37,841 bases of DNA from a virus, in IMG/VR virus record IMGVR_UViG_3300032334_002355, positions 1 through 37,841 of that record; one strand, 5' to 3'. Made by a program: the position numbers and the translations under genes. Below the pieces are notes generated by a model. The model was not told the DNA's origin, searched no databases, and worked only from the letters and a program-made list of their open reading frames with translations. This document shows positions 6,902-28,160 of the stretch, in pieces. Positions within the stretch are counted from its first letter, which is position 1. Every line of letters starts with the position of its first letter.

Positions 6902-8857
6902 TTACAGAGTTTTGGGCGGAGAGCCTAGTATACTTGGCGACGGCCGGCTAAACGACGGCGAAACTGGCGTAGATTCTGGTTTCCAGCCGCTGGTCGGGTT
7001 TGTTGAACTTGTGGCGCCAAATTGTTCGCCGCGGGCTAGTGACGGCACATAACTACTGCCGGCCTCGTCGCTTTTTCGCGCGCGGTGCACGCTGTCGAGG
7101 AAGCCGCGAGATTGATATGACCCGAGCATTCGCGTCATCCAATCCTGATCATTCGAGATGTTTGCCATGCCGCGCACCATCTCTGGTTGAAACGGCGGTG
7201 GTTCGCGGTGGGCTTGCACATTGTTAATGCCATACTTTTTTAAATTTGCCAGTACGCTTTTGGTAAGTTTCGTGCCGATGGAATAATGCAGTGTTGGCTC
7301 TTCTAAATAATGATTCGTGAGCGTTTCAGGATTGCCTGCCACGGCACCCTCTCGGGGCCGCCATGACCGCTCTAGCGCAGAGTAGGGCACAACCTCGTCG
7401 GGAACATAGTCGCCGTATTCGTCGGTGAGGCGTACGTGATTGATTAATCCACGAGCCACCAATTCAATGTTCCGGCGGTTGCCAGTGATTCCCGAGTTGC
7501 CTAACACTTGGCGCATTGCCTGCACAAAATATCGCCGCCCCTCGCCAACGCCTTTGTGTCGAACTACTTCTGCGGGGTTTGGCATGCCGTCGGACAGCAC
7601 GTCTCCGGCTTCGAGCGTGTCGCCTTTTTTTACTGCCAACTCGCGGTCGGCTGGGACGTAGTGCTCTTCGCCGTCAACGGTGACATAAAAACCGCCTTGT
7701 GCCGCGGGCCGAATTTCCTGCACGGTGCCGTCGCGCTGGGCGTGGGCCGCGCCGTCGGGATACTTTTTTGGCACCTGCACCAACGCGTTGATCGCTTTAA
7801 AGCCAGAGATTGATTTTGCGCCGCCGACACCGCCAGAGTGCTTCGATGACAACTGCGACTGTGACACCGGCTCTGACAGGGCCTGCGCCGCCGCAACACC
7901 TACGTAATCGCCTACAGGTGGTAATCGGCTTTTTTCTCGGTAGCCCACGTCTTTCGCGTACACGCCGCCGTCTTCCGGACCGCCGACGAGCGGACTGCGC
8001 ACCAAGATATCTTTGAAGCCGGCCGCTTTAATGTCTTTGAGAATCTTGGGCGTTAAAACCGTATTGCGCTTGTACGCGCCTACGTCGCGGGCCAATAGCG
8101 CACCCTCGTTATCGGGATCATCGACGTCGGCCGGCAGGCCGCGATTAACAGCCGCCTTCAGCCGCTCCTCGTCTTCTTCATCATCGGCCGTGACGAGCAA
8201 CCGGTGAGCCATCTGCGTCAGTTGCTTACCGTAAAACCCGGCGTCGGCTGTGGCGGTTTTGACGTCAATAACGCCTTTACGCGTGCCGAACGACGCCGCA
8301 AAATATTCGGCGGGCGTAAGTCCGCGGCTGTAACTGTGCACGACCGGTAAAGGAATTGGGTGGTCGCGGTGGTCTACATATTGCAGATCAGCACCCAATA
8401 GCGAATTCAGCACAAACTTGTTGCCAGTCGCGCCTGAAATAAACTGATACGCTAACGGGTTGTTCGCCTCTTTTGCTTCGTTAAACACGTCTTCGACTAG
8501 TTTTTGTTGCGTGTTTGACGCTAACTGCAAAATTTTTAATTCGCGCTCTTTGTCTGACAGATTAGTGTCCGCCAAAATTTGCCGAAGTTGTTTTTTTACT
8601 TTTACCTGCGCGTGTTGGCTCGCTAGTGTCGGCTTGATGTGCCGCAACCCCATAGAGAAGCCGCCGGTGGTATACGCCGCCTCGCGGGCAACGTCGTGAA
8701 TTTTTTTCATCGCGTCGCGGTATTTGTCGGGGTGGCGCTTGGCCAGTTCGGTAGCCAACGTGCTCATACCTTTTTTGTCCAACACGCGCTCGTAGTCGCG
8801 CATGTCGTCCGGCAACGCTTCATTGAGCATTAACTGCCCGAGAGTGGTTTTTAGCAC
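6902..8857 (-). CDS. RNA polymerase beta-prime subunit, C-terminal fragment (trigger loop, jaw region)
   Basis: 651 residues. It starts with TTLGQLMLNEALPDD, which matches the conserved TTVGRVIFNE segment of beta-prime, and this supports the GTG start at 8857. Residues 191-220 (GTRKGVIDVKTATADAGFYG) match the beta-prime GARKGLADTAL..TADSGYL bridge-helix region. Residues 319-344 (YVGVAAAQALSEPVSQSQLS, then SKHSGG) match the trigger loop (VGVIAAQSIGEPGTQLTMR, then TFHTGG); His340 is kept, but the Met-Arg pair is Leu-Ser. Residues 287-305 match the second zinc site but lack its cysteines. The last 100 residues are poorly conserved and rich in Ser and Pro. It must combine with the fused beta/beta-prime protein encoded two genes upstream to make an active enzyme. 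Confidence 0.95.
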   Translation of the reverse strand: MLKTTLGQLMLNEALPDDMRDYERVLDKKGMSTLATELAKRHPDKYRDAMKKIHDVAREAAYTTGGFSMGLRHIKPTLASQHAQVKVKKQLRQILADTNLSDKERELKILQLASNTQQKLVEDVFNEAKEANNPLAYQFISGATGNKFVLNSLLGADLQYVDHRDHPIPLPVVHSYSRGLTPAEYFAASFGTRKGVIDVKTATADAGFYGKQLTQMAHRLLVTADDEEDEERLKAAVNRGLPADVDDPDNEGALLARDVGAYKRNTVLTPKILKDIKAAGFKDILVRSPLVGGPEDGGVYAKDVGYREKSRLPPVGDYVGVAAAQALSEPVSQSQLSSKHSGGVGGAKSISGFKAINALVQVPKKYPDGAAHAQRDGTVQEIRPAAQGGFYVTVDGEEHYVPADRELAVKKGDTLEAGDVLSDGMPNPAEVVRHKGVGEGRRYFVQAMRQVLGNSGITGNRRNIELVARGLINHVRLTDEYGDYVPDEVVPYSALERSWRPREGAVAGNPETLTNHYLEEPTLHYSIGTKLTKSVLANLKKYGINNVQAHREPPPFQPEMVRGMANISNDQDWMTRMLGSYQSRGFLDSVHRARKSDEAGSSYVPSLARGEQFGATSSTNPTSGWKPESTPVSPSFSRPSPSILGSPPKTL

Positions 8858-9776: not shown

Positions 9777-12700
9777 TCAATTTTTGTCTTCAACGATATG
9801 TACCGGCGTGTCAATATCGATGTCGCCGCGGCGATACGCAGCCACCGCGTCTTTTTTACTTCTGTATACTCGCGGTTTGGCGCGAGGATTCATTTTACTA
9901 GATGCTAAGTATACACCACTCTGGTAATCTTTGTTTGGCACATAATGGGCTTTAAAATTTGACGCCGCAAACAAATTTTTACTCGGCAGCATCTTTTCGT
10001 AGGCTTCTTTGGCGGCGTCTTCCGTGCTGGGGACGTGATATTGCATTGCGTCCCCGTCGAAGTCGGCGCCAAAACCCTTGGTAATGACCGGATTGACTTC
10101 CATTACCTTGTTTTTGGTCAGCCGCGGTTTAAACGCCATCACGCCATACCGGTGCAATACCGGCGCCCGATTGATAACAATAGGCTTGGCTTGCATTTGC
10201 CGGTTTAACTCGTCAAACGCTGCTTTGTTTTTCTCTTCGACTGCCTGCAGGGCGTTCATGCGGGGTAAGCCGCGGCGGACCAGCGCCCGGACAACAAACG
10301 GCTTGTACACCTCCCACGCTTTTTCTTCGGGAAGCGCTACCTCGTCCATGTCGAGGTCGGGATTGGGTGTAATCACAGCGCGGCCTACCAAATCGACCGT
10401 GCTCGACAACAGTTTGCGCTGCATGACGCCAAACTTCGGGCTATCGCCAAAAATCTTTGACAAAAAGCCGCGCACATTGCGTTCCACGTTTTTGGGCTGC
10501 TGCGGATCGCCCAGCCCGGTTACCGCCTTCATAGAGTCGTACAAAGACAATCGCTCGCCGCTAACGTCGGAAAGCAGGCTGGCCGACTCTTTCAGCACGT
10601 TATTCGAATCAATCAGTTCTTTGTACAGATAATTTGCGTCGTCTACGAGCGGCAATTTTTTGGCGCCCATCGTCGACACGGGGCGAAACATCGGGGGGAG
10701 AACGGGCATTTTATTGAGCATCCAGTCTTTCGGCTGGAGGCCGGTGGCTTCCGCACCCTTTAAAAATCCCAGCCGGCGGACAGCCGCGTCGCGCAGTGTT
10801 TTTCGACCAGACTTGATATCTTCTCGGGCCTGTTCAATCGCCCGCGGGAGGTTGATCTTGGCCAACGCGTCGCGAATCGCCGCCGGTCCCGTCGCATCGC
10901 CCAGTTTCTCCTGCCCGCCCAGCACTGCCCGAAATTGTTTCTCTGTTAACCCGAGCACGCGGCGGATCGGCTCCTCCATGACGGGGTTGGGCATGGGTTC
11001 GTGCAGTGTGACCTTGGCCCATCGATTGCCGGTGTGGCCACCGGTTAACATCTCGTCGAACAGCCCGTTTTTAATGGGCTTCATGTTGCCTTTCCAGTCG
11101 ACCGTCTCGGTGCTTGTAATCTCGCGGTCGCCAGCCAGTTCGTCGATGTCCTTGTCGGTCAGGGCCATGATGTGCGTCTTACTGCCGGTGCGCACGGCGT
11201 TCACCCCAGACGCGCGCAACTGCCCGACAAACTTCTCGTACACGTGCGGTACGCGCGGCAGCGGCGGATCATAGCCCGCCATAAACTGCGTCCAGTATTC
11301 GGGGTTGGCCTGCCCACGCACCATCTTGGCGTCTCTGATGACTTTGCCAGCCCCGTGCGACAAGAGCGCGCCCACCTCCAACATCCCGACGCGTTTGGCG
11401 CCCGTCTCGCCGCCCTTGGCTGGCGCACCCTCCACGCTGTATCCACCTGTCGCCCGGCTCTGCCCCTTGCTCTCAGCCGTGTGGTGCAACTTCATAAAAA
11501 AGCGATTGCCCGTCAGCACGCCTTTGATTTTGCGGCCGGTTTCAGGGTCGACGAGGTCTTCGGTGTCGGACAGGTTGTGTTTTGCCAATTCCTGCATGGC
11601 GTACTCAACCAAATCTTTTTGGTCGTCGAAATCCTTGATCTTGAACGGCTTGCCCGTCTTTTCGGCGATTTTGCCCAACGCAGCCTCGATCACCTGCGCC
11701 GGGTTCACACGATTTAACAGCCCGAGCGGGCTTACCAGCACCTCAAGCGGGCGACCCTGCGCGTCTTGCGGCATTTGGTGATCCGGCACAATCTCGGACA
11801 CCACACCCTTGTCGCCGAAGCGGCCCGTCAACTTATCGCCGACCTCCATTTGGGCCTGCGACTTGACCACCACGCTCACGCCTTTTTTCGTGTGCTCGAC
11901 GTCGGTGACTACGCCGGGCGAATGATGGTCCCACGTCAGTGTCTCGTTTGAAAAGTTACCACCACGGCCGCGATGCACCTTGCCGTACACCTGTTCCTTC
12001 TTTTTTGCAACGAGCACAAGCGGGTCGCCGTAGTTGACGATGGTGCCCTTTTTAATCGCGCCCTCGTCATCAAAGTTCTCCAGCATCTTCTTGTCGTACT
12101 CGCTGGGAAACAGGCTGACGAACGACTTTTTTCCGACGTGGGTGTTGTCGTCCCATTCGGCCTCATTCTGATACATGTGTTGGCTGGTAAGTCGCTTGGC
12201 CGCCGACTCCGAGATCACCACAGCGTCTTCATAGTTGCGGCCGCGGAACGGTGTGTAACCGACGCGCAGGTTTAAACCCAACGCCGCGGAACCGTTTTTG
12301 TCTGTAAAGTTAGACGTAGCGACCAGTTGACCGGGTTTCACCACGTCACCGGGTTTGACGGTCGGCGTCTGCGTCCAAAACGTCTTGCGGTTGAAGGGCA
12401 TGTCGTTATACAAGTCAACCGTGTGCTTGTTGCCGTCTTTGTCGCGGATCACCATCTCGTCCGGCGTGACTGACAACACCTGCCCGCCAACTTGGGCTTT
12501 AATTGCGCCCATCTTCTCGCCCATTTCGTCTTCGTGCGACACGCCGGGCATATCCGCCTTTTCAGACTGCACAAACGGCGATTCAGCGTTTTCCAGCGGC
12601 AGCGCTTGTGTAAACATGCGGCTACCCATGATGACACGCTGACCTTTTACCATCGACTTCATCGGCACCATGTTGGTAAGCGTCGAGAACGTGTTGTCCA

Positions 12701-14219
12701 TGTTGGGGACAGTGTACGTCGCGTCTTTTTTCGGCACATACTTAATTTTGCCGTTCACGAGCGCAGCGACCATCGGCAAATCAGACTTATCTTCGCCCGG
12801 AAACATCAATGGCGTGTCGGCTAGTTCCTGCGGCGTTTTGTATTCTGTCTCACCTGTTTGGGCGTTGCGGACGGGCACCACAAACGTCTTCATGTTGGTG
12901 CCAGACTTGCGCGCGCCAGCCGCAAACCGCATGTCGACACCTACCTTGCCCGACTCTGGCGTGCGCAGGTAGTCAATAAAACCAAAATGGCTTGGCTGCA
13001 CGCTGCGCGACTCGGCAGGGACGGCGTCAAGCGAACCGATGCCGCCTTCCCCGAGCCGGGTGACGCGCGTTTGGTGATCAAAAATTTCGGCGGGGTTAAT
13101 CTCTTCTAAACTCGACCCCAACCCGGACTGAATCAACGCCGCAGAAATACCTTTGTTGAACACACCCGACGGAATGTGGTCGAGCGACTTTTTAGCGGTG
13201 GCTTTCCAAAGTAATTGTCGCAGCGCGGACTTGTCTTTTACAAATCGCTCTGCCAACAAGTCTTCGGGGCCAAACACCTGCTGGAAGGTCATGCTGTCGC
13301 GGTCGTCGCTTTCGGCTTCTTTGCGATTGACGGCCAGTAGTTTTTTAGTGATGTCGAGAATCGCGTCGGGGGTAAGCGTCTTGTACGGCTTGCCGAGCGT
13401 GCGCTTGGTCACTTCTTCGTCGAGTTCGGTTTTATTAAATTCGTCTGCAATCGCTTTGATTTTGGCAATCTGGTCGGCTTGGGGGTCTGCTTTATACGCC
13501 AACCGCTGGTACAACTTATCGAGCGTACCGGCGTCGCCCTGCTGCATGTTCGCGGCGGTGATTTCGTTGCCCCACGCGTCGCGAATCTGCTTTTCGGGCA
13601 CACCCAGTGTTTTCAACAGCGGCATCAACGGAATCTGCGCCTGCCCGATTTGAATCTTGAACACACCGGTTTCGGGGTCGAGGTAGTACCGGTGCGAACG
13701 GCCTTTACCCGGCAGCGTGTTGACGTGCGATTCCAGTTCGCCGTTGTCTTTCTCGCGGGTGAACACGCCGGGTCGCAACCGCAGTTGGTGCGCCAGTGTG
13801 TACTCGACGCCTTTGTTGACGAATGTGCCGGAATCGGTCAGATACGGCACGTTGGCAATTGTGGCGGTACGACTCGCCACAGGGGCGCTGGTTTTGTTAT
13901 CAACCAGCGTCCACGTGCCGACCATCTTGCGGGTTAGCGAGTTGCGGGTAAGCACTGCCCGCTTTTGGTCTTTGCGGGCAAACCGCTCCGGGCCGGCATA
14001 CTGCACGCCCGATAGTTGCAGCGTATACAAGTCGTTTTTAATCGGCTCAATGCCTGACGCGCTCTTCAAAGCCTGATCAAAAATACTTTGGCGCAACGCA
14101 GGAACGTCGCCAAACGCCCGAAACGACTGCTGCGGCTGTTGCGGCTGTTGCGGCGCCATGGCGCCGATCGGCGCCGCTGGCGGCAAGCCGGGCGAAGGAG
14201 GAAAAAACGGCTCAGCCAT
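9777..14219 (-). CDS. Fused RNA polymerase beta / beta-prime N-terminal protein
   Basis: 1480 residues. A Pro/Gln-rich leader (about 1-35) is followed by the whole beta subunit. Landmarks are IANVPYLTDSGTFVNKGVEY (N-terminal lobe), FGFIDYLRTPESGKVGV (rifampicin-region equivalent), FRGRNYEDAVVISE (about 658), GDKLTGRFGDKGVVS (about 793, both conserved lysines kept) and SRATGGYSVEGAPAKGGETG (about 925). From about 1060 it becomes beta-prime: NRWAKVTLHEPMPNPV, MLNKMPVLPPMFRP, INRAPVLHRYGVMAFKP, then the Mg-binding DFDGD at 1386-1390. It stops about 90 residues later, near where cyanobacterial and plastid rpoC1 and rpoC2 divide. There is no cysteine anywhere, so the N-terminal zinc site is lost. 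The residue normally Asn before ADFDGD is Gly. With the product of 6902-8857 it should form a template-dependent RNA polymerase. No sigma or alpha is seen. Confidence 0.97.
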   Translation of the reverse strand: MAEPFFPPSPGLPPAAPIGAMAPQQPQQPQQSFRAFGDVPALRQSIFDQALKSASGIEPIKNDLYTLQLSGVQYAGPERFARKDQKRAVLTRNSLTRKMVGTWTLVDNKTSAPVASRTATIANVPYLTDSGTFVNKGVEYTLAHQLRLRPGVFTREKDNGELESHVNTLPGKGRSHRYYLDPETGVFKIQIGQAQIPLMPLLKTLGVPEKQIRDAWGNEITAANMQQGDAGTLDKLYQRLAYKADPQADQIAKIKAIADEFNKTELDEEVTKRTLGKPYKTLTPDAILDITKKLLAVNRKEAESDDRDSMTFQQVFGPEDLLAERFVKDKSALRQLLWKATAKKSLDHIPSGVFNKGISAALIQSGLGSSLEEINPAEIFDHQTRVTRLGEGGIGSLDAVPAESRSVQPSHFGFIDYLRTPESGKVGVDMRFAAGARKSGTNMKTFVVPVRNAQTGETEYKTPQELADTPLMFPGEDKSDLPMVAALVNGKIKYVPKKDATYTVPNMDNTFSTLTNMVPMKSMVKGQRVIMGSRMFTQALPLENAESPFVQSEKADMPGVSHEDEMGEKMGAIKAQVGGQVLSVTPDEMVIRDKDGNKHTVDLYNDMPFNRKTFWTQTPTVKPGDVVKPGQLVATSNFTDKNGSAALGLNLRVGYTPFRGRNYEDAVVISESAAKRLTSQHMYQNEAEWDDNTHVGKKSFVSLFPSEYDKKMLENFDDEGAIKKGTIVNYGDPLVLVAKKKEQVYGKVHRGRGGNFSNETLTWDHHSPGVVTDVEHTKKGVSVVVKSQAQMEVGDKLTGRFGDKGVVSEIVPDHQMPQDAQGRPLEVLVSPLGLLNRVNPAQVIEAALGKIAEKTGKPFKIKDFDDQKDLVEYAMQELAKHNLSDTEDLVDPETGRKIKGVLTGNRFFMKLHHTAESKGQSRATGGYSVEGAPAKGGETGAKRVGMLEVGALLSHGAGKVIRDAKMVRGQANPEYWTQFMAGYDPPLPRVPHVYEKFVGQLRASGVNAVRTGSKTHIMALTDKDIDELAGDREITSTETVDWKGNMKPIKNGLFDEMLTGGHTGNRWAKVTLHEPMPNPVMEEPIRRVLGLTEKQFRAVLGGQEKLGDATGPAAIRDALAKINLPRAIEQAREDIKSGRKTLRDAAVRRLGFLKGAEATGLQPKDWMLNKMPVLPPMFRPVSTMGAKKLPLVDDANYLYKELIDSNNVLKESASLLSDVSGERLSLYDSMKAVTGLGDPQQPKNVERNVRGFLSKIFGDSPKFGVMQRKLLSSTVDLVGRAVITPNPDLDMDEVALPEEKAWEVYKPFVVRALVRRGLPRMNALQAVEEKNKAAFDELNRQMQAKPIVINRAPVLHRYGVMAFKPRLTKNKVMEVNPVITKGFGADFDGDAMQYHVPSTEDAAKEAYEKMLPSKNLFAASNFKAHYVPNKDYQSGVYLASSKMNPRAKPRVYRSKKDAVAAYRRGDIDIDTPVHIVEDKN

Positions 14220-17754: not shown

Positions 17755-18780
17755 CTAAATGTTGCCTAATGCGCCATATGACTTCAGTTTCTTGGGCGGC
17801 CAGCCGTTGACGCCCGAGAACGCAATCATCGACCGATTTTTGATATCTGACCAGCGCGCCCAAAACGACCCAACTGGGATATCAATGTTCGTGCCCAGAA
17901 TGCGCCGCGGCCCGTCATTCCACTGACCCCATGAATTTTGAATTAACACCAGTGGCTCGTTGTAAACGGCTTTAATAGCGTCCCGATCATCTACGCCCAG
18001 ATAGGCCATCGCGTGGGCCCAAGACCCCTTCCGCGAACTTACACCATGTTCATTTCGTTGACTTGAAAATCCTTCTGAGCCGCACGAACTTATACAGTAA
18101 CCATTGGCTAAAAAGTCGCGCAGTTGATCGTAGTCTTCGACATCGGTGACGGTGCGAATTAAATGATTCTTGCCGATCGCCAGCCATGACTCGGGTGGTG
18201 TGCGCGAGCCATACAGCCCGGCGTTGCGCGACGAGTATTGCGTCATGTCGACGCCAATTTCGTCGTACTTCTTGCGCAACCACAAGCCCGACTCTTTCAT
18301 CGCCACGCGGGCCGCGGCGGAACATGTCCAGCCGTCGCCGCCGTGGCGGCGCCAATTGTAAAACGCTTCCGTGCTGAGCACGCCGTTTAAACGCGCGGTG
18401 TCGCTGACCGCCGGCGCGCCTTCCAGCCGCCCACTTACTTCGTCCGGCTTGCCGCTGGTGACTTCGCAGCACAGTGAGCCGAGACACGCGTTTCGGGTCG
18501 ACCAACTAACGCAGTCGCCACGGCCCTGCGCGCCGCCCGGCAAACATTCGGGGTACAGCGTAGTGATCTCTACGACGGGCAGACTCAGTTTGCCTTTGCC
18601 TGTATTTTCAAGTCCGTAGGCTTGGCAAGCCATGGCCCCGTCGGGAAATCCGCCGGCCGCGCGAACATCTGCCCACAACTGCGCGTCAGCCTCGGGGTCG
18701 CTGTAGACGCCGACAAAACCTTTTTCGTACGCCTCGACGACGTCGTACACATTCTCAAAAAACAGTTCTGGTTCAGCCAT
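17755..18780 (-). CDS. Papain-like (C1A-type) cysteine peptidase
   Basis: 341 residues from the ATG at 18780, chosen because AGGTG sits five bases upstream; an earlier start at 18813 would run through the terminator hairpin. Catalytic features: oxyanion Gln85, nucleophile Cys90 in QGRGDCVSWS, His256 in GSWAHAMAYLG, and Asn282-Ser-Trp-Gly in IQNSWGQW. This order and spacing fit clan CA family C1 peptidases. Extra paired cysteines (CLGSLCC, CISSC) may form disulfides. There is no signal peptide. It follows a strong terminator, so it may begin a new transcription unit or depend on read-through. Possible roles are virion-protein maturation or attack on host proteins; the sequence does not tell which. 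Confidence 0.85.
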   Translation of the reverse strand: MAEPELFFENVYDVVEAYEKGFVGVYSDPEADAQLWADVRAAGGFPDGAMACQAYGLENTGKGKLSLPVVEITTLYPECLPGGAQGRGDCVSWSTRNACLGSLCCEVTSGKPDEVSGRLEGAPAVSDTARLNGVLSTEAFYNWRRHGGDGWTCSAAARVAMKESGLWLRKKYDEIGVDMTQYSSRNAGLYGSRTPPESWLAIGKNHLIRTVTDVEDYDQLRDFLANGYCISSCGSEGFSSQRNEHGVSSRKGSWAHAMAYLGVDDRDAIKAVYNEPLVLIQNSWGQWNDGPRRILGTNIDIPVGSFWARWSDIKNRSMIAFSGVNGWPPKKLKSYGALGNI

Positions 18781-18791
18781 GCGCGCACCTG

Positions 18792-18830
18792 TAAAAGTTA
18801 CGCCCCGCCGCAATAGCGGCGAGACGTAAC
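18792..18830 (-). terminator. Intrinsic terminator between the FnIII-like gene and the peptidase gene
   Basis: On the minus strand, GTTACGTCTCGCCGC, loop TATT, then GCGGCGGGGCGTAAC forms a 15-pair stem with two G-T wobbles. TTTT follows at once. The hairpin begins about 15 bases after the stop at 18845. The peptidase ribosome site lies a few bases beyond the T-run. This is the strongest terminator in the window. Confidence 0.85.
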
Positions 18831-18844
18831 CGTCGTGTTAACTG

Positions 18845-19195
18845 TTATTCTTCGGTGACATCGTCAGCCACTTCCGGAGCAGGCGTATCTTCCACGCGCC
18901 GCTCGGCGACCAACGAGACATTCAACCCGCCCGGAACGGACGGCGGCAACGTGTCGACCGCAGTGAAATACATTTCCGCAGGGTCCGAACGGTTGCCGGC
19001 GTCGTCGACATCGACGAGCCGTAACACCACGTCAGCATCTTGCGGCACATCGACTTCACCCAAGTCCAGCGTGTAGCCCGGAAAAGAAACAACCGCTTGT
19101 TCTACGCCGTTAATAATTACGCTAAGTTCGCGAACTACCACGTCGCTTTCAACAGCCGGAGCAGCAGACACAGCGTAAGTTAAAACATCAGCCAT
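18845..19195 (-). CDS. Ig/FnIII-like domain protein (116 aa, soluble form)
   Basis: ATG at 19195 with an excellent AAAGGAG site seven bases ahead. The sequence reads as one or two beta-sandwich domains: VVRELSVIINGVEQAVV, then DVVLRLVDVDDAGNRSDP, then DTLPPSVPGGLNVSLVAE, which has the typical Pro-rich lead into a fibronectin-III strand. The tail is acidic (EDTPAPEVADDVTEE). Such small domains occur on phage capsids and tails as decoration. The same frame stays open upstream and adds a membrane segment (see the 18845-19345 entry). A terminator follows directly. Confidence 0.75.
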   Translation of the reverse strand: MADVLTYAVSAAPAVESDVVVRELSVIINGVEQAVVSFPGYTLDLGEVDVPQDADVVLRLVDVDDAGNRSDPAEMYFTAVDTLPPSVPGGLNVSLVAERRVEDTPAPEVADDVTEE

Positions 19196-19345
19196 AGGCT
19201 TTCTCCTTTGCTCAGAAACAGACAGACGCGGCGTTGTTGGGCGCCGCGTCAACAACCTGCTCATAATAACAAAAAAGACAAACGGGCACCACAACAGAAT
19301 AAACACTGTGAACACAAACGCGTTCGTATCAGTTGCAGACATCAC
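18845..19345 (-). CDS. Alternative membrane-anchored long form of the FnIII-like protein
   Basis: From GTG/ATG at 19345/19342, nine or fewer bases after the previous stop, the frame reads through 50 extra residues into the 116-residue form. The extension has a clear transmembrane helix (FVFTVFILLWCPFVFFVIM) followed by a basic stretch (SRLLTRRPTTPR), giving a predicted N-out, C-in anchor. The upstream ribosome site (TAGGTAAC) is modest, while the internal one is strong. Two products from one frame are therefore possible. Alternatively only the short form is made and the extension is chance, though such a clean helix argues against that. Confidence 0.4.
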   Translation of the reverse strand: MMSATDTNAFVFTVFILLWCPFVFFVIMSRLLTRRPTTPRLSVSEQRRKPMADVLTYAVSAAPAVESDVVVRELSVIINGVEQAVVSFPGYTLDLGEVDVPQDADVVLRLVDVDDAGNRSDPAEMYFTAVDTLPPSVPGGLNVSLVAERRVEDTPAPEVADDVTEE

Positions 19346-19353
19346 CGTGTTAC

Positions 19354-19794
19354 CTACTTCGCTGACGCCGCCACAATTTGGCAGGCTTTTAACAACTGTG
19401 CGCGCGTTTCAGGATTAGCCGGCAACACGTCGTCGGTTCCGGTTTGCTGGAGAAACACTTGCTCAATCGCCACGTCGAGACCCGGATACTTGCCGGGCGT
19501 ATCAATCGCCAACTGCAGCGTGTTCGCTTGGTAGTCGGCCCACTGCTCGGTTGTCTTTATGCGTTGGCCACTGTCGCGCTGCAGCACCGTCGCCATCGCC
19601 GAATACACATCGCGCACCCGTGCTTTGTCTGCCGCCGGAGCCGAGCGCAACGCCGCCACAATAGCGTCCGAAACCGGCACGTCTACCGGCGCCGGAACTG
19701 GCGCGGGGTTAGGGCGTGTCGGCAACGTGATCCCGTTCGGGTAGAAGATCGACAGGGCCAGCACAAAACCGGCCACCCAAACTAACTTTTTCAT
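19354..19794 (-). CDS. Exported protein with signal peptide (146 aa)
   Basis: MKK followed by a hydrophobic core (LVWVAGFVLALSIFYP) is a standard signal peptide or N-terminal anchor. A Pro-rich linker (RPNPAPVPAPVDVPV) leads to a helical domain of about 100 residues with no cysteine before the last helix (KACQIVAASAK). GGGAG precedes the ATG at 19794. The C-terminal domain is not a family I know. It sits among other small membrane or exported proteins next to the metallopeptidase, so an envelope or lysis role (spanin-like or accessory) is possible but unproven. Confidence 0.75.
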   Translation of the reverse strand: MKKLVWVAGFVLALSIFYPNGITLPTRPNPAPVPAPVDVPVSDAIVAALRSAPAADKARVRDVYSAMATVLQRDSGQRIKTTEQWADYQANTLQLAIDTPGKYPGLDVAIEQVFLQQTGTDDVLPANPETRAQLLKACQIVAASAK

Positions 19795-19818: not shown

Positions 19819-20094
19819 TCAGACGTTTTTCGCGGGCGGAATGTGCTCAACAATTACGCGTAACAGCGCTGTGCAGGCTTCAACACCCTGCTCGCACCCT
19901 TCGGCCGCTAATTTGTCGCGCAACTCGGTCACAGACACCAAGTCGTCTACAATCGTGACCGCAATCGACTTCTCGACAACCGGCCCGCCGACGTTCGGGG
20001 CCGCCTTGCGCACCAGCGCCAACAACTCTTTACCGTACGCCGCCACCACCAACGCGGTAAACACTACCGACGCTAAAATTTGAAATGTAGTCAT
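19819..20094 (-). CDS. Small single-pass membrane protein (91 aa)
   Basis: Residues 5-22 (QILASVVFTALVVAAYG) form a transmembrane helix near the N-terminus. Beyond it are a basic patch and a helical soluble domain with two cysteines (EGCEQGVEACTALL). The ribosome site AAGGAG at 20108-20103 is excellent. It lies 30 bases after the metallopeptidase and 24 before the exported protein. No family recognised. Position and topology fit an i-spanin or accessory lysis protein, but nothing in the sequence proves it. Confidence 0.7.
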   Translation of the reverse strand: MTTFQILASVVFTALVVAAYGKELLALVRKAAPNVGGPVVEKSIAVTIVDDLVSVTELRDKLAAEGCEQGVEACTALLRVIVEHIPPAKNV

Positions 20095-20124: not shown

Positions 20125-20949
20125 TCACGTTTTTGGTACAAGGACATAGGGGCGCCCGTTAATTAGCAGTGTGCCGCCAATTTTAACGGCGGCGTCCTTA
20201 GTCACCGGATACTTTTTCGATCTCCGGCCGTACAATTTTACAATTTCCGTCACGTCGCCCTTTTGCGGCGCGCTCACGTTTGGGTCGTAGTATGGCGCCA
20301 TCAGATTGCCAGCATTTAAGTGCCCCAACCCAAGTGCGTGCCCAATCTCGTGACACATCACCGCGATCGCCATGTTGAACGTCCACGGCTCGGCTTCGTC
20401 GTACATCTGGTCTAGTTGAATATTTTCGGCCACGCCGCACGGCAACTCGCTCCACGCCAACGTACCGCCGCGGCTGTCGAGGTGGTGCTTTTTACCCGTT
20501 CCGGAGCGCGCGTAAATGTTGGCTTTAGCGACTTCTTCTACCCGTGTCGGTTCAATGTCGCAAACCGCGGCCCATTGAGAAAACGCGATATCGTACGCTT
20601 CGATTACCTGCGTCGGCGACACACCCGGCAGTCGAAGATCGTGGTAGTAGGTAATTTTTTTCATCGGCCACTTGCATGGCTTGCCGTTCGGGTCCGTTAA
20701 CCCAAAGTCCGGCAAACCGCACCGGCGGCGACTGAGCCGATGCGCGGTCTCATCGTTTACGTGCCCGTTCACCGCAATGCCGTTAAACTTCTGATACGCG
20801 CGAACGGCTTTTTCGAGTTCTTTGCCGCGAATTGCCTTTACGGCAGTCCACGTCTTATCGCCAAAGTAGCCAAGATTAAATAAATACTGCAGCGTCTGTT
20901 GCGTTGTCAGGACGTTCGGGTCCGAAATATCTTTTGACTTCCGTGTCAT
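20125..20949 (-). CDS. Matrix-metalloproteinase-like (M10, matrixin) zinc peptidase with cysteine-switch propeptide
   Basis: 274 residues. Residues 12-75 form a peptidoglycan-binding-type helical domain like the MMP prodomain (LQYLFNLGYFG, KAVRAYQKFNGI). It ends at RRCGLPDFG (76-83), the equivalent of the PRCGVPD cysteine switch, whose Cys77 would ligate the catalytic zinc and keep the enzyme latent. The catalytic domain has HEIGHALGLGH (His200, His204, His210 ligands, Glu201 base) and a Met-turn at 217 (AGNLM). About 35 residues follow the domain; no hemopexin domain and no signal peptide are seen. TAGGAG precedes the ATG. It may cleave envelope proteins at lysis or entry; that role is inferred from the membrane-protein neighbours. 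Confidence 0.9.
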   Translation of the reverse strand: MTRKSKDISDPNVLTTQQTLQYLFNLGYFGDKTWTAVKAIRGKELEKAVRAYQKFNGIAVNGHVNDETAHRLSRRRCGLPDFGLTDPNGKPCKWPMKKITYYHDLRLPGVSPTQVIEAYDIAFSQWAAVCDIEPTRVEEVAKANIYARSGTGKKHHLDSRGGTLAWSELPCGVAENIQLDQMYDEAEPWTFNMAIAVMCHEIGHALGLGHLNAGNLMAPYYDPNVSAPQKGDVTEIVKLYGRRSKKYPVTKDAAVKIGGTLLINGRPYVLVPKT

Positions 20950-20958
20950 GGGTGTCTC

Positions 20959-21354
20959 CTACTCGTGGGCGAGTGCGACTAACGCCTGCAATGCCGCCGG
21001 GTCGGCCTGTTCGGCGACGCTGTACACGGCCGAAAGAAACGGGTTGTCCAACCGCTGCGTAGAGTCAGCGCAACAATCGCGCCAAAGTCGCGTCAGCCGC
21101 CGCCGCAGGCGCAGCAAATGGCGCGGCGGCAGGGTGCGAATGTCGCGCATGTCTTGCACAATCTGCTCGTCGTCATGCGTCTCCCGGCAATGAACAATAA
21201 CTTGAATTACAATCGAAATAATGGTGAGGATTGTCAACGGGTCGAGCGTGACGTTGTGCTCGACCTGAAAGCAGAGTTCGTCGGTCAACGCCTGCTTTAA
21301 CTCGCTCAGCGCCGGCGACGACTCACACGCGCCCACAATCTGTTCTGGCCGCAT
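20959..21354 (-). CDS. Small membrane protein (131 aa)
   Basis: An N-terminal helical domain of about 37 residues is followed by one transmembrane segment (LTILTIISIVIQVIVH, near residues 40-56). After it come an Arg-rich segment (LPPRHLLRLRRRLTRLWRDCC) and a helical C-terminus. Its start is one base from the stop of the preceding gene, with a weak site, so translation is likely coupled. No family recognised. It is part of a run of small membrane proteins around the matrixin gene. Confidence 0.65.
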   Translation of the reverse strand: MRPEQIVGACESSPALSELKQALTDELCFQVEHNVTLDPLTILTIISIVIQVIVHCRETHDDEQIVQDMRDIRTLPPRHLLRLRRRLTRLWRDCCADSTQRLDNPFLSAVYSVAEQADPAALQALVALAHE

Positions 21355-21355
21355 G

Positions 21356-21718
21356 TTACTTCTGCAGGCGCAGCCGCTCGATGGCCAACGCTTCTCGATA
21401 ATGCATCTGCGCCGCGATGAGTTGCGCCTGCACAGCCTGTCGGCCGGCTAGATACTTCCACACTAACGCCGTGTTTACAACCAGCACCTGCGCAGCAGCC
21501 AGCACCGCACTCAGGGCTTTAATCAAACTTTCGGCGTTGGTGGCCTCAACCCACCCCAACAACACGCCGACCGTGACCAGATTCGTGGCGGCGGCGATAG
21601 CCATGGTCCAAAATTCAGGCGTCAGCCAACGCACAGTTACTTCCGGTGCGGCGTCAGGGACCGGTTCGCCCATCACGCGCAAATCTTCTTTGATCTGTGT
21701 TTTTTTCGACGTCGCCAT
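21356..21718 (-). CDS. Two-helix membrane protein (120 aa), holin-like topology
   Basis: Start ATG at 21718, preceded by AAAGGAG; the longer upstream frame lacks a site. After about 32 soluble residues come two transmembrane helices (FWTMAIAAATNLVTVGVLLG and ALSAVLAAAQVLVVNTALVW), then a charged helical tail (MHYREALAIERLRLQK). Size and topology resemble class II holins, but a better holin candidate lies at 25892-26263. The pair could be holin and antiholin or the second could have another membrane role; this is inference from topology. Confidence 0.65.
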   Translation of the reverse strand: MATSKKTQIKEDLRVMGEPVPDAAPEVTVRWLTPEFWTMAIAAATNLVTVGVLLGWVEATNAESLIKALSAVLAAAQVLVVNTALVWKYLAGRQAVQAQLIAAQMHYREALAIERLRLQK

Positions 21719-21735
21719 TGCGTGCTCCTTTGTAA

Positions 21736-22908
21736 TTAACGTTGCATGCCGAATATAGACGGAACGACAGCATGCATCATACCACCCCACAAGCCCATAT
21801 CTTGTAATTTTTCTTGTCCCGCCGGTGTTAAACCCGCCAACGCAGACAGCGCTCGGCCGGCGATGTTCGCCGTAGCCAAACCGACGCCGGCGGACGCAAT
21901 GCCGCGAATCACGTCAACAGGGCGAATGATCGGCGACTGCTGTGCGGCGCTCAACCCGCCCATTAACCCGGTGGCGGCCGCGGCGTACGCCGGCGGTGTA
22001 AACATCTGATTGCCGGTGTACATGCCGCGCTGCACGTCGTTCCACGCAGCGGCATTAAACTGCGGCACTGAGACCGTCGGCGCAAACAACCCGGAGTTGC
22101 TCCGCGAGTTCATATCGCGCACGGCGTTGATGTCGTAATTCATTTTAAAAAACCCATCGGCATTTTCGTGCCGCGAGTCGTACGGCGCGGCCATCGTGCC
22201 AGTCCCGGGCCGGGCGCCAAACGTCGCGCCTTGCGGCGCCGGGTTGTAGTTCCGTGTCTTGCCAAACCGCTCGCGCGTTTGGGGCGCTGTCGGCCGGGAT
22301 AAGTGATATTCCGGCACGGGGTACGGATTCGGCGGCTTGGGGAACTCCTGCTCGTTGCGGCCTAACCACCCCCGCCAGAATCCCGTCCCTAATTGCCGGC
22401 CGCGCGAGTACGCGTTATTCGCGCCGATAGCGACACCCGCGCCAACGCCCAACAATCCCAAATTGCGCCGCAACTTGCCCCGCTCAATGTATCGCTCGGG
22501 AAACAAATTCTCAGCCAGCGTGCCGGCGCCGTACCCTAAGCCGCCCAGCAGCAGACTTGACACAATTCCGTTGGTCAGCGGCGTGGCGCCGCCCATCATG
22601 CGCTGCGCAAAGTCAACGCCGGAGGCGACGTAGGGCAATCCCGCCATCTTGAGAAAAATAACATTGGGGTCGTCGCGCTGCTCGGTGAGCGGGCGGACAA
22701 TGACGTTGTCAGCGGCCAGTTTGGTCCGGTACGGCTTGGAGCGGTAAATCGTTAACTGATCGGTCTCGGGCTGCCATGTCGCCACGCAGCCCACCATGTC
22801 GCCCACTTGCTCGGCAAACTTGAGATACGCGGCTTGCACCGCTAGCGCCTGCGGCAATAACGCCACGACGCGGTCCGGAACTTGTTGCCACTCGCTAAGT
22901 TGGGTCAC
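21736..22908 (-). CDS. Glycine-rich virion-like protein (390 aa)
   Basis: The GTG start at 22908 overlaps the previous stop (GTGA). Residues 1-90 form a soluble domain (QVGDMVGCVATWQPETDQL). Then come Gly-rich hydrophobic segments (SSLLLGGLGYGAGTLAENLF, GLLGVGAGVAIGANNAY), a Pro/Tyr-rich disordered linker with many Asn and Arg, and a C-terminal Ala/Gly helical part (GLMGGLSAAQQSPI, GIASAGVGLATANIAG). The architecture resembles the other glycine-zipper proteins of the window and fits an internal or ejected virion protein. No enzyme motif is visible. Confidence 0.65.
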   Translation of the reverse strand: MTQLSEWQQVPDRVVALLPQALAVQAAYLKFAEQVGDMVGCVATWQPETDQLTIYRSKPYRTKLAADNVIVRPLTEQRDDPNVIFLKMAGLPYVASGVDFAQRMMGGATPLTNGIVSSLLLGGLGYGAGTLAENLFPERYIERGKLRRNLGLLGVGAGVAIGANNAYSRGRQLGTGFWRGWLGRNEQEFPKPPNPYPVPEYHLSRPTAPQTRERFGKTRNYNPAPQGATFGARPGTGTMAAPYDSRHENADGFFKMNYDINAVRDMNSRSNSGLFAPTVSVPQFNAAAWNDVQRGMYTGNQMFTPPAYAAAATGLMGGLSAAQQSPIIRPVDVIRGIASAGVGLATANIAGRALSALAGLTPAGQEKLQDMGLWGGMMHAVVPSIFGMQR

Positions 22909-23162
22909 GAGACAGTCCGCCAGAGGTTAACAAGAAATCGACACACTACTACCACCCACGCCAACACGCCGCTGATAGCAAAAAAAAGCAGCACCGGAAT
23001 TGATAACAATGCCGGCCACAATTCCCGCATGTTTATTTTACTCAAAACCGCCCAGATACGCAGATAGGGTACGCGATCTGGTGCCGTATCTGGTCGCGGC
23101 GGCTGTGGCGGCACAGGCTTTTTTTTCAACAGGTCGGAAAGGCGGTCCCATAAATTTTTCAT
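22905..23162 (-). CDS. Small membrane protein (85 aa)
   Basis: The ATG at 23162 overlaps the stop of the Nudix gene (ATGA), so I prefer it to an earlier in-frame start. The N-terminal 45 residues are charged and Pro-rich (LLKKKPVPPQPPRPDTAP). Two closely spaced hydrophobic runs (LWPALLSIPVLLFFAISGV and LAWVVVVCRFLVNLW) make one long or two short membrane helices at the C-terminus. No family recognised. It is one of several small membrane proteins in this block. Confidence 0.65.
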   Translation of the reverse strand: MKNLWDRLSDLLKKKPVPPQPPRPDTAPDRVPYLRIWAVLSKINMRELWPALLSIPVLLFFAISGVLAWVVVVCRFLVNLWRTVS

Positions 23163-25732
23163 TTTGGCGCCCCGAATACCGTGTTTAACGCGTGGTCGCC
23201 ATACATTTGCACACTCTGATCGAACCAATTTTGTTGCGGCATGTCGCCCATAATCGCGCGCCGGGCCAATTCGTGGCGGTACATGGGGTCAACGGCGGCG
23301 CGGTATTGCTCGTGATTCTGGTTCGCCTGCAGCATAAAGTCGCCGCGCTGTTTCACGGCCTGCAGATGGTCGCGCACGTTGTCAAACACTGTCTTGTTGT
23401 AGTCGTAGCGCAACGGCTGCCGCATGTTAAACACGTTTTTTAACTGGCCCCAATACATGCTCGGCTGCTGGGCTGGTGTTTGCTGGCCAGCCTGCGGCGC
23501 GCCCCAGTTCTGTGTCGCTTTTTTTACGCTGGCAGGAATTGTGATCGGCGCAGTGTGGAAGCGAAACTTGGTGGGCTTGTGGGTAATCCCCTTGTACTTG
23601 GGTTTGTCGTCGTCGATTTCCCAGTCCTGCGGCGCTTGCGCCATTAATCGCCGCAGAATCTCGTGCTTGTGCCCGTAGCGTTTCGCGTCCGAATGTGTTT
23701 TCGCGGCTTTTAACTCGTCAAGAATTGTGGGCGACTTCTTGGTCGCGGCTAGATACGCGCGCAGCGCCACATCATTGCCAAATTCCGTTAGTTGTTGCTG
23801 CCGGGCCACAGTCGGAACCACGCGGCCTTTCTCTTTGAAATTATTTAACATCTGCGCGGCTTGGGCGCGGTACCACCACACCGGTTTACCGTCGACCTCG
23901 CCCTTGTGCAGCGGCTCGGGGTGCAGGTCGCTTACATCCCACCCCTCCTCGCGCGCTTCTCGGGCCACGGCGGCGAGCGGGTCTTCGCCCGGCTCTAATT
24001 TTCCGCCCGGCAACCCAAACTTCCCATCGCCGGTCGGCCGGGTTGTGGCGGCATAGCCCTTTTCATGCGGGGCGATGACAAAAGTCGCCCACGGAGACTC
24101 GGCGGCTTTTTCTACTTCTTTTTGTTTTTCGTAGTAGCGGGGGTCTTCGGACAAATGATCCTTGGCAATTTCTTTGGCGATTTGATCATCGTCGGTGTGT
24201 TCGCGCTCATGGTCTGCTCCTTCAGCGAGGGCCGGGCGTGGAAATTTACTGTCGGGCACTCCGTCGGCTTCGCCTCCGGGAAGTTTGTCGGCGGCGGCTG
24301 TTTTATTTGCCGCGCTGTCAAGAATGTACTGCAGGGCTCGCTGGCGGCCGAGCGCGACCGGCGGCGACATGTGCTGCTTGCCCTCCATCATCTGCAGCGC
24401 TGCTGCGGGCGTGTAAAAACCGCGATTGGTCGCAGACCACGCATCGAGGTTTTTGCGGCGCAATTTTTTTACAAAATCTGCCATCACAAAGTGCGTCCGC
24501 GAACCCGCAAAGTTGCGCCCGGTTCGCTGCCGGTATTCGTCGCTCCACGTGTTGTCGACGGGGTCGAACGGCAGGCGAACCGGATTCGCGGCTTGAATGC
24601 CGGTCTCCTCTAACAGTTCCCGCACGGCGGCTTGTTCCGGTGTTTCCCCGGGGTCGAGCCCGCCGCCCGGAGCCGCAAACGCCTTGTCGCTGTCCCACGT
24701 GCCGCCGTATATTTTTCCGGTTTTGGGATGCCGCGTTAAAATCTCCACGCGTTCCCGCCACGGTAACTCCGCCGCCACTTTTGGCGCGGCGAGCGAGGGA
24801 TACACCGCCGTCTCCCGAAATTTCTTTACCCGCGCAGCGAGCAGTTCTTTCTGTCGCTGACTTTTGAGCCACGCCTGCGCAATCAACGCCAAATCTGTCA
24901 TCTCTTTGTCAACGTTGCCCTGCGTCTGAATCGCGGTCTGGGTGTCGGTCAGGTGCTGCGGCAGGGCGGCCAGCAGGTGGTCGCGTTCGCTCCACTTGGG
25001 CGCCAGTTTTGTTAAATCAACCGCTTGTTTCGTTGCGCAGCAGTACCGTTTGCAGGTACACGTGGGCGGGCAGGTGCATTTGCCGGAACAGTTACAGTCA
25101 TACGTAGTGGTTTCGTCCGCCGCGGCTTTTAATTCGCCCCGGCCGGCTGCGTCGTCAAACTTGCTGACGGAGTTCTCCTGCAGCACGCTTTTCCGCCGCA
25201 CGGCTACCGTAATATGAAACGGGTGGCCTTTGGGGTAGGGCGAGAGGCCGTAACTTTTGCGCAGCGTCGCCAGTTCGGGCGCGGATACTTGAATCACCCA
25301 GACTTTGCTGACGCCATCGATGTTCTGGACCGGCACTTCTTTCAGCGTGCCCAACGCGTAGCGAAACGTGTGGCCGCGCTCAGATATCTTGTCGGCGCCG
25401 ATTTTATTGACTTCATCTGCCGTCATCACCGAAATGTGCGCGTTGAGCACATCGGGCTTCACGTTGGGGACGTTCAGCGCGCCCGCCAACGGCAGTTCCG
25501 TGCCGGGGGCGGTCAACGCGTCATACACGCCGCGGACCAATGCGTTCGGGACAGATAACAACAGCCAGCCGCTCTGCGCAACATGCAATCGGCCCGACAA
25601 CGGGTGTTGTGTTGCGGCCTGCTTATTGCCACGATGCAGCCACCCCAGCGCGTGCCCAGCGTGATACTCAGCGGTCTGCGTGACAGACGCAGCGTCGAGG
25701 ACCGGGGCGTTCAGAATAGAAAAGCCGTCCAT
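23159..25732 (-). CDS. Multidomain protein: 2H phosphoesterase, Cys cluster and two Nudix domains
   Basis: 857 residues with GGAG before the ATG. Residues about 50-180 look like a 2H (LigT-like) phosphoesterase with both signature histidines: His99 in NAHISV and His173 in PFHITV. Residues 213-232 contain nine cysteines (spaced CNC, CTC, CTC, CC), like a metallothionein or compact zinc knot. Nudix box 1 is complete at 357-379 (GGLDPGETPEQAAVRELLEE, then TGI). Nudix box 2 (577-599, GKLEPGE, REAREEGW) keeps the acidic metal ligands but has Trp at the final Gly. The last 160 residues are a helical domain of unknown fold. 2H enzymes open cyclic phosphates or 2'-5' bonds and Nudix enzymes cut diphosphates, so nucleotide or signal degradation is plausible. 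A structural virion role for the C-terminus cannot be excluded. Confidence 0.85.
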   Translation of the reverse strand: MDGFSILNAPVLDAASVTQTAEYHAGHALGWLHRGNKQAATQHPLSGRLHVAQSGWLLLSVPNALVRGVYDALTAPGTELPLAGALNVPNVKPDVLNAHISVMTADEVNKIGADKISERGHTFRYALGTLKEVPVQNIDGVSKVWVIQVSAPELATLRKSYGLSPYPKGHPFHITVAVRRKSVLQENSVSKFDDAAGRGELKAAADETTTYDCNCSGKCTCPPTCTCKRYCCATKQAVDLTKLAPKWSERDHLLAALPQHLTDTQTAIQTQGNVDKEMTDLALIAQAWLKSQRQKELLAARVKKFRETAVYPSLAAPKVAAELPWRERVEILTRHPKTGKIYGGTWDSDKAFAAPGGGLDPGETPEQAAVRELLEETGIQAANPVRLPFDPVDNTWSDEYRQRTGRNFAGSRTHFVMADFVKKLRRKNLDAWSATNRGFYTPAAALQMMEGKQHMSPPVALGRQRALQYILDSAANKTAAADKLPGGEADGVPDSKFPRPALAEGADHEREHTDDDQIAKEIAKDHLSEDPRYYEKQKEVEKAAESPWATFVIAPHEKGYAATTRPTGDGKFGLPGGKLEPGEDPLAAVAREAREEGWDVSDLHPEPLHKGEVDGKPVWWYRAQAAQMLNNFKEKGRVVPTVARQQQLTEFGNDVALRAYLAATKKSPTILDELKAAKTHSDAKRYGHKHEILRRLMAQAPQDWEIDDDKPKYKGITHKPTKFRFHTAPITIPASVKKATQNWGAPQAGQQTPAQQPSMYWGQLKNVFNMRQPLRYDYNKTVFDNVRDHLQAVKQRGDFMLQANQNHEQYRAAVDPMYRHELARRAIMGDMPQQNWFDQSVQMYGDHALNTVFGAPK

Positions 25733-27125: not shown

Positions 27126-28160
27126 TCACAATACTTTCGCGGCGATCAAACACCCGCGGGCCACGGCGTGCAACGGGTCACTCGCGTGCCGCACTTCTTT
27201 GATCGCTAGCGGAAAGTCGTTCTCGGCCAGTTTTTTCTCGAACATCGGCACAAAACCTTGCGCTTGTGTCGTCCCGCCCGCGACGGCAATCAGTAACGGG
27301 TTTTTGAACTTGGGCAGGGCTTTGTGCCCGCGCAGCGCATTAGCCAGTTGTTTAGTCGTATAGTCAATCAGCCGCTCGTAATAAGCGCTGACCGCGGCCA
27401 AGACAGGATTGTCGTTCTGCTCGCCAATCACAAACGCGCCGTTCTCTTTTTCCGCCTGCACCACGCTGTCGGGCTCGCCGGTCGCGATTCCGGCCATGCG
27501 ATCAATCCAGTCGCCCGATTTAGTGGTGGAGAACGTGACCGTGGGTTCGCCGTTGAGCATCACGCAGCAGTTCACCATGCCCGCGCCCCACGACAATGCC
27601 ACGCCGGTGTAATCGTCGTTCTCTAACTCGGAATAGCACAGGGCTTCTGCTTCGTTGATCGCCCGGGCGCTGTACCCTTGGCCCTGCAGCACCGTCTTGA
27701 CCACATCTTCGTGATAGCCCACGTCAAACTCGTCGTCTTCTTGGTCGACGGGCTGGGCCGGAATGCAAAACACCAACTTTTCGTCGGGCTCGCTGGCGTG
27801 GCCGCACACCTGCTGGAGAATGTATGCCAGCACGCGCTTGGCCTCTTTTTCCTTGGGGCTGACGACGCCGCGGTACATGGGACGCTTGGCCGACTCGTTG
27901 CGCTCGATCGCTTTTTCAATCGCGTCTTGGCCGAGAATAATAAACGCGCCGTCGGTGTCTTTCACGAATACTTTGCCCTGCAGGCCCTTTTCAATCATCT
28001 TGGTGGCGACAGGCGTCGTGGGCTTAATCACGTAGAACGCGTCCCGGAAATCGGTGTATTTCACATACCCGAACTTGTCGTCGCTGGTAAAACTGACGGG
28101 CGCTTCGCTGTCAGAAGCGAGCACGATAAACGAAGTGCCGACGTCGAGACCTTTGGCCAT
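27126..28160 (-). CDS. Actin-like / ParM-like ATPase
   Basis: 344 residues with AAAGGA before the ATG. Actin/Hsp70-fold nucleotide motifs occur in order: phosphate-1 GLDVGTSFIVLAS (residues 4-16, Asp6 as the Mg/nucleotide residue), phosphate-2 like GVALSWGAGMVNCCVML in the middle, and adenosine motif LLIAVAGGTTQAQGF near the C-terminus. Length fits ParM/Alp/MreB-type filaments. Phage-encoded actin homologues are known to position replicating DNA or virion parts, or to segregate plasmid-like prophages. No adjacent ParR-like adaptor is obvious, though the 120-residue membrane protein just upstream may be a partner. A terminator follows. Confidence 0.8.
   Translation of the reverse strand: MAKGLDVGTSFIVLASDSEAPVSFTSDDKFGYVKYTDFRDAFYVIKPTTPVATKMIEKGLQGKVFVKDTDGAFIILGQDAIEKAIERNESAKRPMYRGVVSPKEKEAKRVLAYILQQVCGHASEPDEKLVFCIPAQPVDQEDDEFDVGYHEDVVKTVLQGQGYSARAINEAEALCYSELENDDYTGVALSWGAGMVNCCVMLNGEPTVTFSTTKSGDWIDRMAGIATGEPDSVVQAEKENGAFVIGEQNDNPVLAAVSAYYERLIDYTTKQLANALRGHKALPKFKNPLLIAVAGGTTQAQGFVPMFEKKLAENDFPLAIKEVRHASDPLHAVARGCLIAAKVL

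Follow-up and report, generated by a model that had tools for sequence, protein, structure and literature searches.

Why would a bacteriophage encode an enzyme built like the proenzyme of a matrix metalloproteinase (MMP), and what would a latent protease of this kind do during infection? The question is raised by a gene in an IMG/VR virus record of 37,841 bases, referred to below as the window. An earlier note had described an MMP-like enzyme with an intact cysteine switch at 20125-20949. These coordinates proved correct, and the strand, which had been left unstated, is the minus strand: the reading frame runs from an ATG at 20949 to a stop at 20125 and encodes 274 amino acids, and the plus strand of the same interval is rich in stop codons.

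Pfam analysis assigned residues 92-240 to Peptidase_M10 (PF00413; E = 2.3e-18, 67 bits against a cut-off of 24) and residues 20-70 to PG_binding_1 (E = 1.3e-8, above the cut-off). The order of elements, a prodomain followed by RRCGLPDF, HEIGHALGLGH and the Met-turn NLMAPYY, is exactly that of MMPs, as had been claimed (Table 1). The prodomain comprises three helices (residues 16-25, 42-55 and 66-72 in the structural model, pLDDT >90), and the C-terminal beta-hairpin is recognisable too in prophage relatives from Planctomycetota. Two residues before the switch cysteine, the window protein has Arg instead of the Pro of the animal PRCGxPD. The histidines that bind the structural zinc in MMPs lack conserved counterparts: Trp166 and Gln178 align with MMP His183 and His196. 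A scan of the window protein for a hydrophobic N-terminus revealed no signal peptide and no transmembrane (TM) segment, and the N-termini of its relatives are charged. By catalytic-domain homology, zinc site, Met-turn and fold, the protein belongs to peptidase family M10 (matrixins), with predicted proteolytic activity. It is assigned here, from sequence and model, to Pfam M10 as an MMP-zymogen-like protein and is not classed as an endolysin. The suggestion that the prodomain may target the cell wall is less supported: Pfam also assigns the prodomains of MMPs to PG_binding_1, so this resemblance is uninformative about wall binding.

Table 1. Coordinates of the M10 gene, its elements, its neighbours and the secreted proteins of related contigs. 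Positions refer to the window unless a contig is named.
Feature	Position	Strand	Basis or remark
M10 matrixin-like zymogen, 274 aa	20125..20949	-	without signal peptide or TM segment
Prodomain, residues 14-73, MMP-prodomain / PG_binding_1 helical bundle	20731..20910	-	Pfam and model
Cysteine-switch motif RRCGLPDF, residues 75-82	20704..20727	-	conservation; Cys77 codon 20719-20721
Peptidase_M10 catalytic domain, residues 92-240	20230..20676	-	Pfam and structural match
Zinc-binding motif HEIGHALGLGH, residues 200-210	20320..20352	-	ligands invariant in aligned sequences
Met-turn NLMAPYY, residues 215-221	20287..20307	-	Met217 conservation
Conserved C-terminal beta-hairpin GGTLLINGRPYVLVP	20134..20178	-	model strands 260-263, 266-269
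Holin-like protein, two TM, two genes upstream of M10	21356..21790	-	TM scan and weak PF23987 matches
131-aa protein, one TM, directly upstream of M10	20959..21354	-	TM scan, gene order
91-aa protein, N-terminal TM, directly downstream of M10	19819..20094	-	TM scan, gene order
146-aa protein, N-terminal TM or signal	19354..19794	-	TM scan, gene order
166-aa protein, N-terminal TM	18845..19345	-	TM scan, gene order
Papain-like cysteine peptidase candidate	17755..18813	-	motif only
Secreted CxxC(H) proteins	L112:6183-7472, L308:7564-8940, L310:16573-18075, L328:8043-9563		

A family profile derived from a diverse alignment matched human proMMP-1 end to end, collinear through the prodomain and the catalytic domain (E = 1.4e-41), a resemblance that chance cannot explain, and proMMPs ranked above all catalytic-domain-only MMPs in this search. 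A first AF2 model, obtained with close relatives only (pLDDT 72.7, prodomain poorly docked), was replaced by one from the deeper, diverse alignment (pLDDT 88.4, pTM 0.84). Each of the best 14 VIA-align matches of the latter was an MMP proenzyme, and nine aligned over 205-216 residues at 2.0-2.5 Å (1su3_A, Z 25.0, 2.0 Å over 206; 5ue4_B, Z 25.4, 2.2 Å over 209; 1slm, Z 24.5, 2.5 Å over 212). Catalytic-only MMPs scored below the proenzymes, at Z 21.4 or less, and the catalytic domain of the model matched MMP catalytic domains at Z about 21 and 1.7-2.3 Å. These matches, which place the prodomain in the latent position, run counter to the refuting outcome named in the earlier note, a model with Cys77 far from the zinc site. 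Residues ~14-244 of the model overlay latent proMMPs, mostly at 2-2.5 Å, which predicts a prodomain seated over the active site; AF2, having been trained on MMP structures, may favour this latent pose. By the same superposition, the Cys77 thiol would lie at the catalytic zinc, the model itself being metal-free.

Close relatives, all of them in viral contigs, were retrieved at 56-77% identity, 13 by a single-sequence search and 68 loci by an alignment search; together with divergent phage and prophage relatives, they show that the same fusion recurs in other phages, a search the earlier note had proposed. Several of the contigs carrying close relatives measure 193-205 kb, and the gene has a fixed place in one block of these ~200-kb phages. 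The relative G006 (204,621 bases) was taken as complete because of its 123-base terminal repeat. RCGLPDF is invariant and HExGHALGLxHL conserved in 43 distinct close relatives. Among 50,697 cultured-phage records, neither the M10 protein nor its prophage relative had a match, and the sole PHROGs match was a weak one to an endolysin peptidoglycan-binding entry.

Conservation was assessed in an alignment of 42 phage and prophage sequences with 27-77% identity. Cys77, Trp126, Leu164, Ala165, His200, Glu201, Gly203, His204, Gly207, His210, Asp232 and Tyr240 were invariant in 42/42; Met217 was kept in 39 and replaced by Leu in three. The divergent L313, L328, L350 and L366 had been retrieved with Cys in the search pattern, and L100, L101, L184, L186, L194 and L240 without it; owing to these six, the invariance of Cys77 is not purely a product of selection by the pattern. 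Three other cysteines, C92, C130 and C171, were jointly present in 38 sequences and jointly absent in four, all of which kept Cys77. Since the three vanish while Cys77 stays, the conservation of Cys77 appears linked to the zinc site rather than to disulfide bonding with any of them. C92, C130 and C171 behave as a structural unit, perhaps a metal site in place of the lost MMP structural zinc.

This pattern bears on a reading in which the MMP-like fold carries no working latency switch, the cysteine being structural or the protein being an ordinary wall hydrolase that binds peptidoglycan through its PG_binding_1-like domain. The surroundings of the switch cysteine do vary in distant members (CGVAD, CGVVE, CGISG, CNHPD), and in L194 the helical bundle is lost and the cysteine retained. 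That very retention of Cys77, despite decay of the bundle and flanking motif and the loss of other conserved cysteines, argues against the reading, as does the docking of the prodomain in the model as in proMMPs; we regard it as quite improbable. The earlier description of an MMP-like latent zymogen is instead borne out, at the level of sequence and model, by the proMMP-1 profile match, the invariant Cys77 and the superposition on latent proMMPs, and latency is a well-supported prediction.

A DNA pattern combining the switch and the catalytic motif, run across IMG/VR, matched 70 contigs: 57 from the family of the window protein, six new ones with an in-frame protein (L313, L329, L336, L350, L328, L366) and seven others. 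These seven of the 13 new contigs were set aside, as they held no in-frame switch protein. CGxPD was found upstream in only two of 78 other metzincin ORFs (mostly from among the matches listed in one scan), and both were copies of one Tat-signal protein. According to these counts, M10-like enzymes are ordinary in phages and a cysteine-switch zymogen is rare outside this M10 family. The remark that such an enzyme is unusual in a phage consequently holds for the cysteine switch and fails for M10-type metzincins, which are common in viral contigs. The M10 zymogens of L313, L329, L336 and L350 carry PRCGCPD, and the Met of their Met-turn is replaced by Leu (ILWPSY); a protein judged by eye to be YiiX/NlpC-P60-like is encoded nearby.

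The gene order around the M10 gene was conserved in the 68 loci, a few small genes being missing in some and some loci being cut by contig ends. Identified by their positions in the window, the genes are NUDIX/2H (23159), 22905, 21736, 21356, 20959, M10, 19819, 19354, 18845, papain-like 17755, 17411 to 14225 and RNA polymerase 9777. A TM scan predicted one or two TM segments in each of the products of 22905, 21356, 20959, 19819, 19354 and 18845. Pooled homologues of the neighbours gave seven matches to Phage_holin_10 (PF23987; best 6.4e-5), all below the Pfam cut-off. The weak holin matches in seven of 12 large relatives all fall on the gene two upstream of M10, and the window's own copy of that gene gave no score against Phage_holin_10. 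In the papain-like candidate, Q96, C101 and H267 are invariant in 44 sequences and N293 is present in 38 of the 44; with no Pfam match and no PDB match by sequence, the assignment is motif-based only. This candidate is a possible partner or activator of the M10 zymogen.

Several other products of the window were recorded. The gene at 23159-25732 (minus strand) encodes an 857-aa protein with a 2H phosphoesterase domain, NUDIX-domain stretches and DUF5661. An actin-like protein with weak salactin/MamK similarity (27126-28160, minus strand) is strongly conserved among relatives. A small SprT/minigluzincin-like protein with an HEWAHARAWNH motif (35774-36124, minus strand) is 77% conserved in G006. 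Collagen-like Gly-x-y repeats occur in a tail-fibre-like protein (992-1459, minus strand), and G006 encodes long collagen-like proteins.

We propose that the latent M10 metallopeptidase is most likely the enzyme with which the phage lysis cassette breaks the envelope, a reading to which we give roughly even chances. Lacking a signal peptide, the zymogen would be produced in the reducing cytoplasm of the host and kept inactive by the MMP-type prodomain, the Cys77 thiol acting as fourth ligand of the catalytic zinc. At a late stage of infection, membrane lesions formed by the neighbouring holin-like protein would release it from the cytoplasm. Outside, the switch would open through thiol oxidation and/or cleavage of the prodomain, whether by the zymogen itself, by a protease of the host or by the papain-like peptidase encoded nearby, and the active protease would cut envelope proteins or peptides. 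The proposal is supported, as far as sequence and model go, by the zymogen architecture, the latent fold, the co-conservation of the cysteine and the zinc site, and the fixed place beside holin-like and membrane-protein genes. Beyond these, we infer the lysis role, the export through holin lesions, the trigger, the substrate and the host. Timed activation outside the cytoplasm, as the earlier note had suggested, is plausible given the missing signal peptide and the holin-like gene two genes upstream. G006 also encodes a secreted thioredoxin-like protein (106513-106842, WCKYC) and a TM-anchored trypsin-like protein (99100-99966, GDSGG), which may bear on activation by redox change or by proteolysis.

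The main rival places the protease in the virion, because the RNA polymerase genes of the conserved block have homologues among virion proteins of Salmonella phage Arash. The window encodes a multisubunit RNA polymerase (9777-14219 and 6902-8857, minus strand), in which one gene encodes beta joined to the N-terminal portion of beta' and the second encodes the remainder of beta'. In Arash virions, mass spectrometry places its distant homologues among the most abundant proteins (PMC10585845), so the polymerase of the window may be virion-packaged. The M10 protein would then be packaged with the polymerase or in the tail, become active on the cell surface or during injection, and digest host surface or defence proteins. 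The conserved block does run directly into these polymerase genes, and a latent form would shield virion proteins; however, Arash, a distant relative and the only one with virion proteomics, has no M10 relative, and the immediate neighbours of the M10 gene encode small membrane and holin-like proteins, not tail or capsid proteins. In the Planctomycetota prophages the M10 gene lies by packaging and head genes, yet inside a group that includes secreted proteins. We consider a virion role unlikely.

An accessory protease, secreted or intracellular, would serve to take over the host, to exclude superinfection or to digest nearby cells and be dispensable for lysis and entry. The Listeria gene pair mtz-tim, an accessory prophage pair that sensitises cells to lysins (PMC8235301), offers a precedent, but the M10 protein has no signal peptide and its place is fixed in all 68 loci found, unlike that of an accessory gene. 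Such a role appears to us rather improbable.

If the M10 protein acts in lysis, the presence of another lysin becomes relevant. In G006, no lysozyme, amidase, CHAP, M15, M23, NlpC or transglycosylase domain was detected by Pfam among 139 mid-sized ORFs and nine more, a scan that covered ORFs of 90 aa or more, apart from two longer than 1000 aa and some of the 65-99 kb region. Six-frame searches detected no GH24, Amidase_2 or M15_4 in the 12 large relatives, G410 and G411. A full Pfam scan of G410, a 47-kb phage contig that carries a terminase, a major head protein and an M10 protein, revealed no recognised wall hydrolase. Missing known lysin families do not amount to a missing lysin, and an unrecognised family may be encoded elsewhere in these phages. 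In the L313 and L350 phages, TM proteins once more precede the M10 gene, together with a protein that, judged by eye, resembles a permuted NlpC/P60 hydrolase. No M10 peptidase is known to cleave peptidoglycan.

The nearest cellular relatives were found in a scan of bacterial genomes, in three Planctomycetota assemblies. Two of these have sufficient sequence on either side to show that the M10 gene lies in a prophage: it is followed by large terminase, portal and head genes, and the element is flanked by typical chromosomal genes. These relatives retain the switch cysteine as CGVAD or CGVVE, and further relatives on the viral contigs G410 and G411 have FCGIS and FCNHP. Across 392 Planctomycetota genomes, a DNA pattern for cysteine-switch M10 gave one match, judged from its sequence to be due to chance. 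The family profile found one genome, that of the known prophage, and four M10 proteins without a switch. In the Planctomycetota prophages, G410, G411 and L328, a secreted CxxC(H) protein of 430-500 aa adjoins the M10 gene; the two of these proteins that were tested had no NCBIfam match, and no secreted CxxCH protein was found in the window. The small protein upstream of the prophage M10 gene was considered as a counterpart of the window's small membrane proteins and rejected, as hhalign detected no similarity.

On account of these M10 relatives, the host of the window's phage group is probably a planctomycete. For G410 and G411, a TIGR02996 match below the cut-off and a LETRETP-like motif seen by eye are only suggestive of the host. 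The planctomycetal envelope has, in the account given in PMC4432640, long been described as proteinaceous, yet it contains peptidoglycan; an envelope rich in protein would be a suitable target for a protease lysin.

A bolder form of the lysis proposal holds that the protease zymogen has replaced the endolysin. The cysteine switch would sense the compartment, keeping the enzyme silent in the reducing cytoplasm and turning it on once holin lesions expose it outside, and the envelope, probably that of Planctomycetota, would be opened by proteolysis; MMP-type latency in phages would be independent of animals. We advance this combination tentatively and think it doubtful as a whole. It raises the idea that some phages lyse cells via a redox- or cleavage-gated protease. 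If true, it would provide a large group of uncultured phages with its first identifiable lysis gene, the M10 gene, and give a clue to the way in which phages breach planctomycetal envelopes. An MMP prodomain with a cysteine switch is usually treated as an animal and plant trait, and the known prokaryotic cases, karilysin and mirolysin, use other propeptides. The conservation of a complete zymogen of the MMP type in different phage lineages bears on the origin of the cysteine-switch mechanism. In a literature search thin on subscription journals, we found no published phage M10 zymogen with an MMP prodomain and cysteine switch.

Among known systems, the animal proMMP-1, -3, -9 and -10 (M10A) share with the phage protein the prodomain bundle, the RCGxPD switch, HExxHxxGxxH, the Met-turn and the predicted latent packing at 2-2.5 Å. 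Unlike them, the phage protein has no signal peptide, hemopexin domain or conserved structural-zinc His; it has Arg for Pro before RCG, the extra co-varying C92/C130/C171 and an added C-terminal hairpin. The MMPs of insect viruses such as granuloviruses, ascoviruses, iridoviruses and entomopoxviruses are likewise virus-encoded M10 enzymes and gave structural matches in BFVD, at about 20% identity; these are viruses of animals, and the genes were probably captured from animals. The SAR endolysin P1 Lyz is a glycosidase with a signal-anchor that is inactive until its compartment changes and is activated by disulfide isomerisation. Both enzymes would be cysteine-controlled and compartment-gated under our proposal, but the Lyz cysteine is not a zinc ligand.

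Karilysin of Tannerella forsythia has a bacterial M10 catalytic domain and a short propeptide, and its proenzyme (4r3v) matches the model at Z 21.2. It has an aspartate switch (PMC8259862), in contrast to the full MMP-type cysteine prodomain of the phage protein. Mirolysin, an M43B pappalysin from the same species, shows cysteine-switch latency via Cys23 experimentally, and replacing Cys23 makes activation much faster (PMC8259862). It resembles the phage protein as a prokaryotic metzincin with a cysteine switch, experimental in mirolysin and predicted in the phage; it differs in family and propeptide and in being a secreted host enzyme that is not phage-borne. Listeria mtz, a metzincin of phage origin, lies near holin-lysin genes and affects wall sensitivity, but it has a Sec signal peptide, is described with no mention of a switch or prodomain, and is paired with tim, a lipoprotein resembling TIMP-like inhibitors (PMC8235301).
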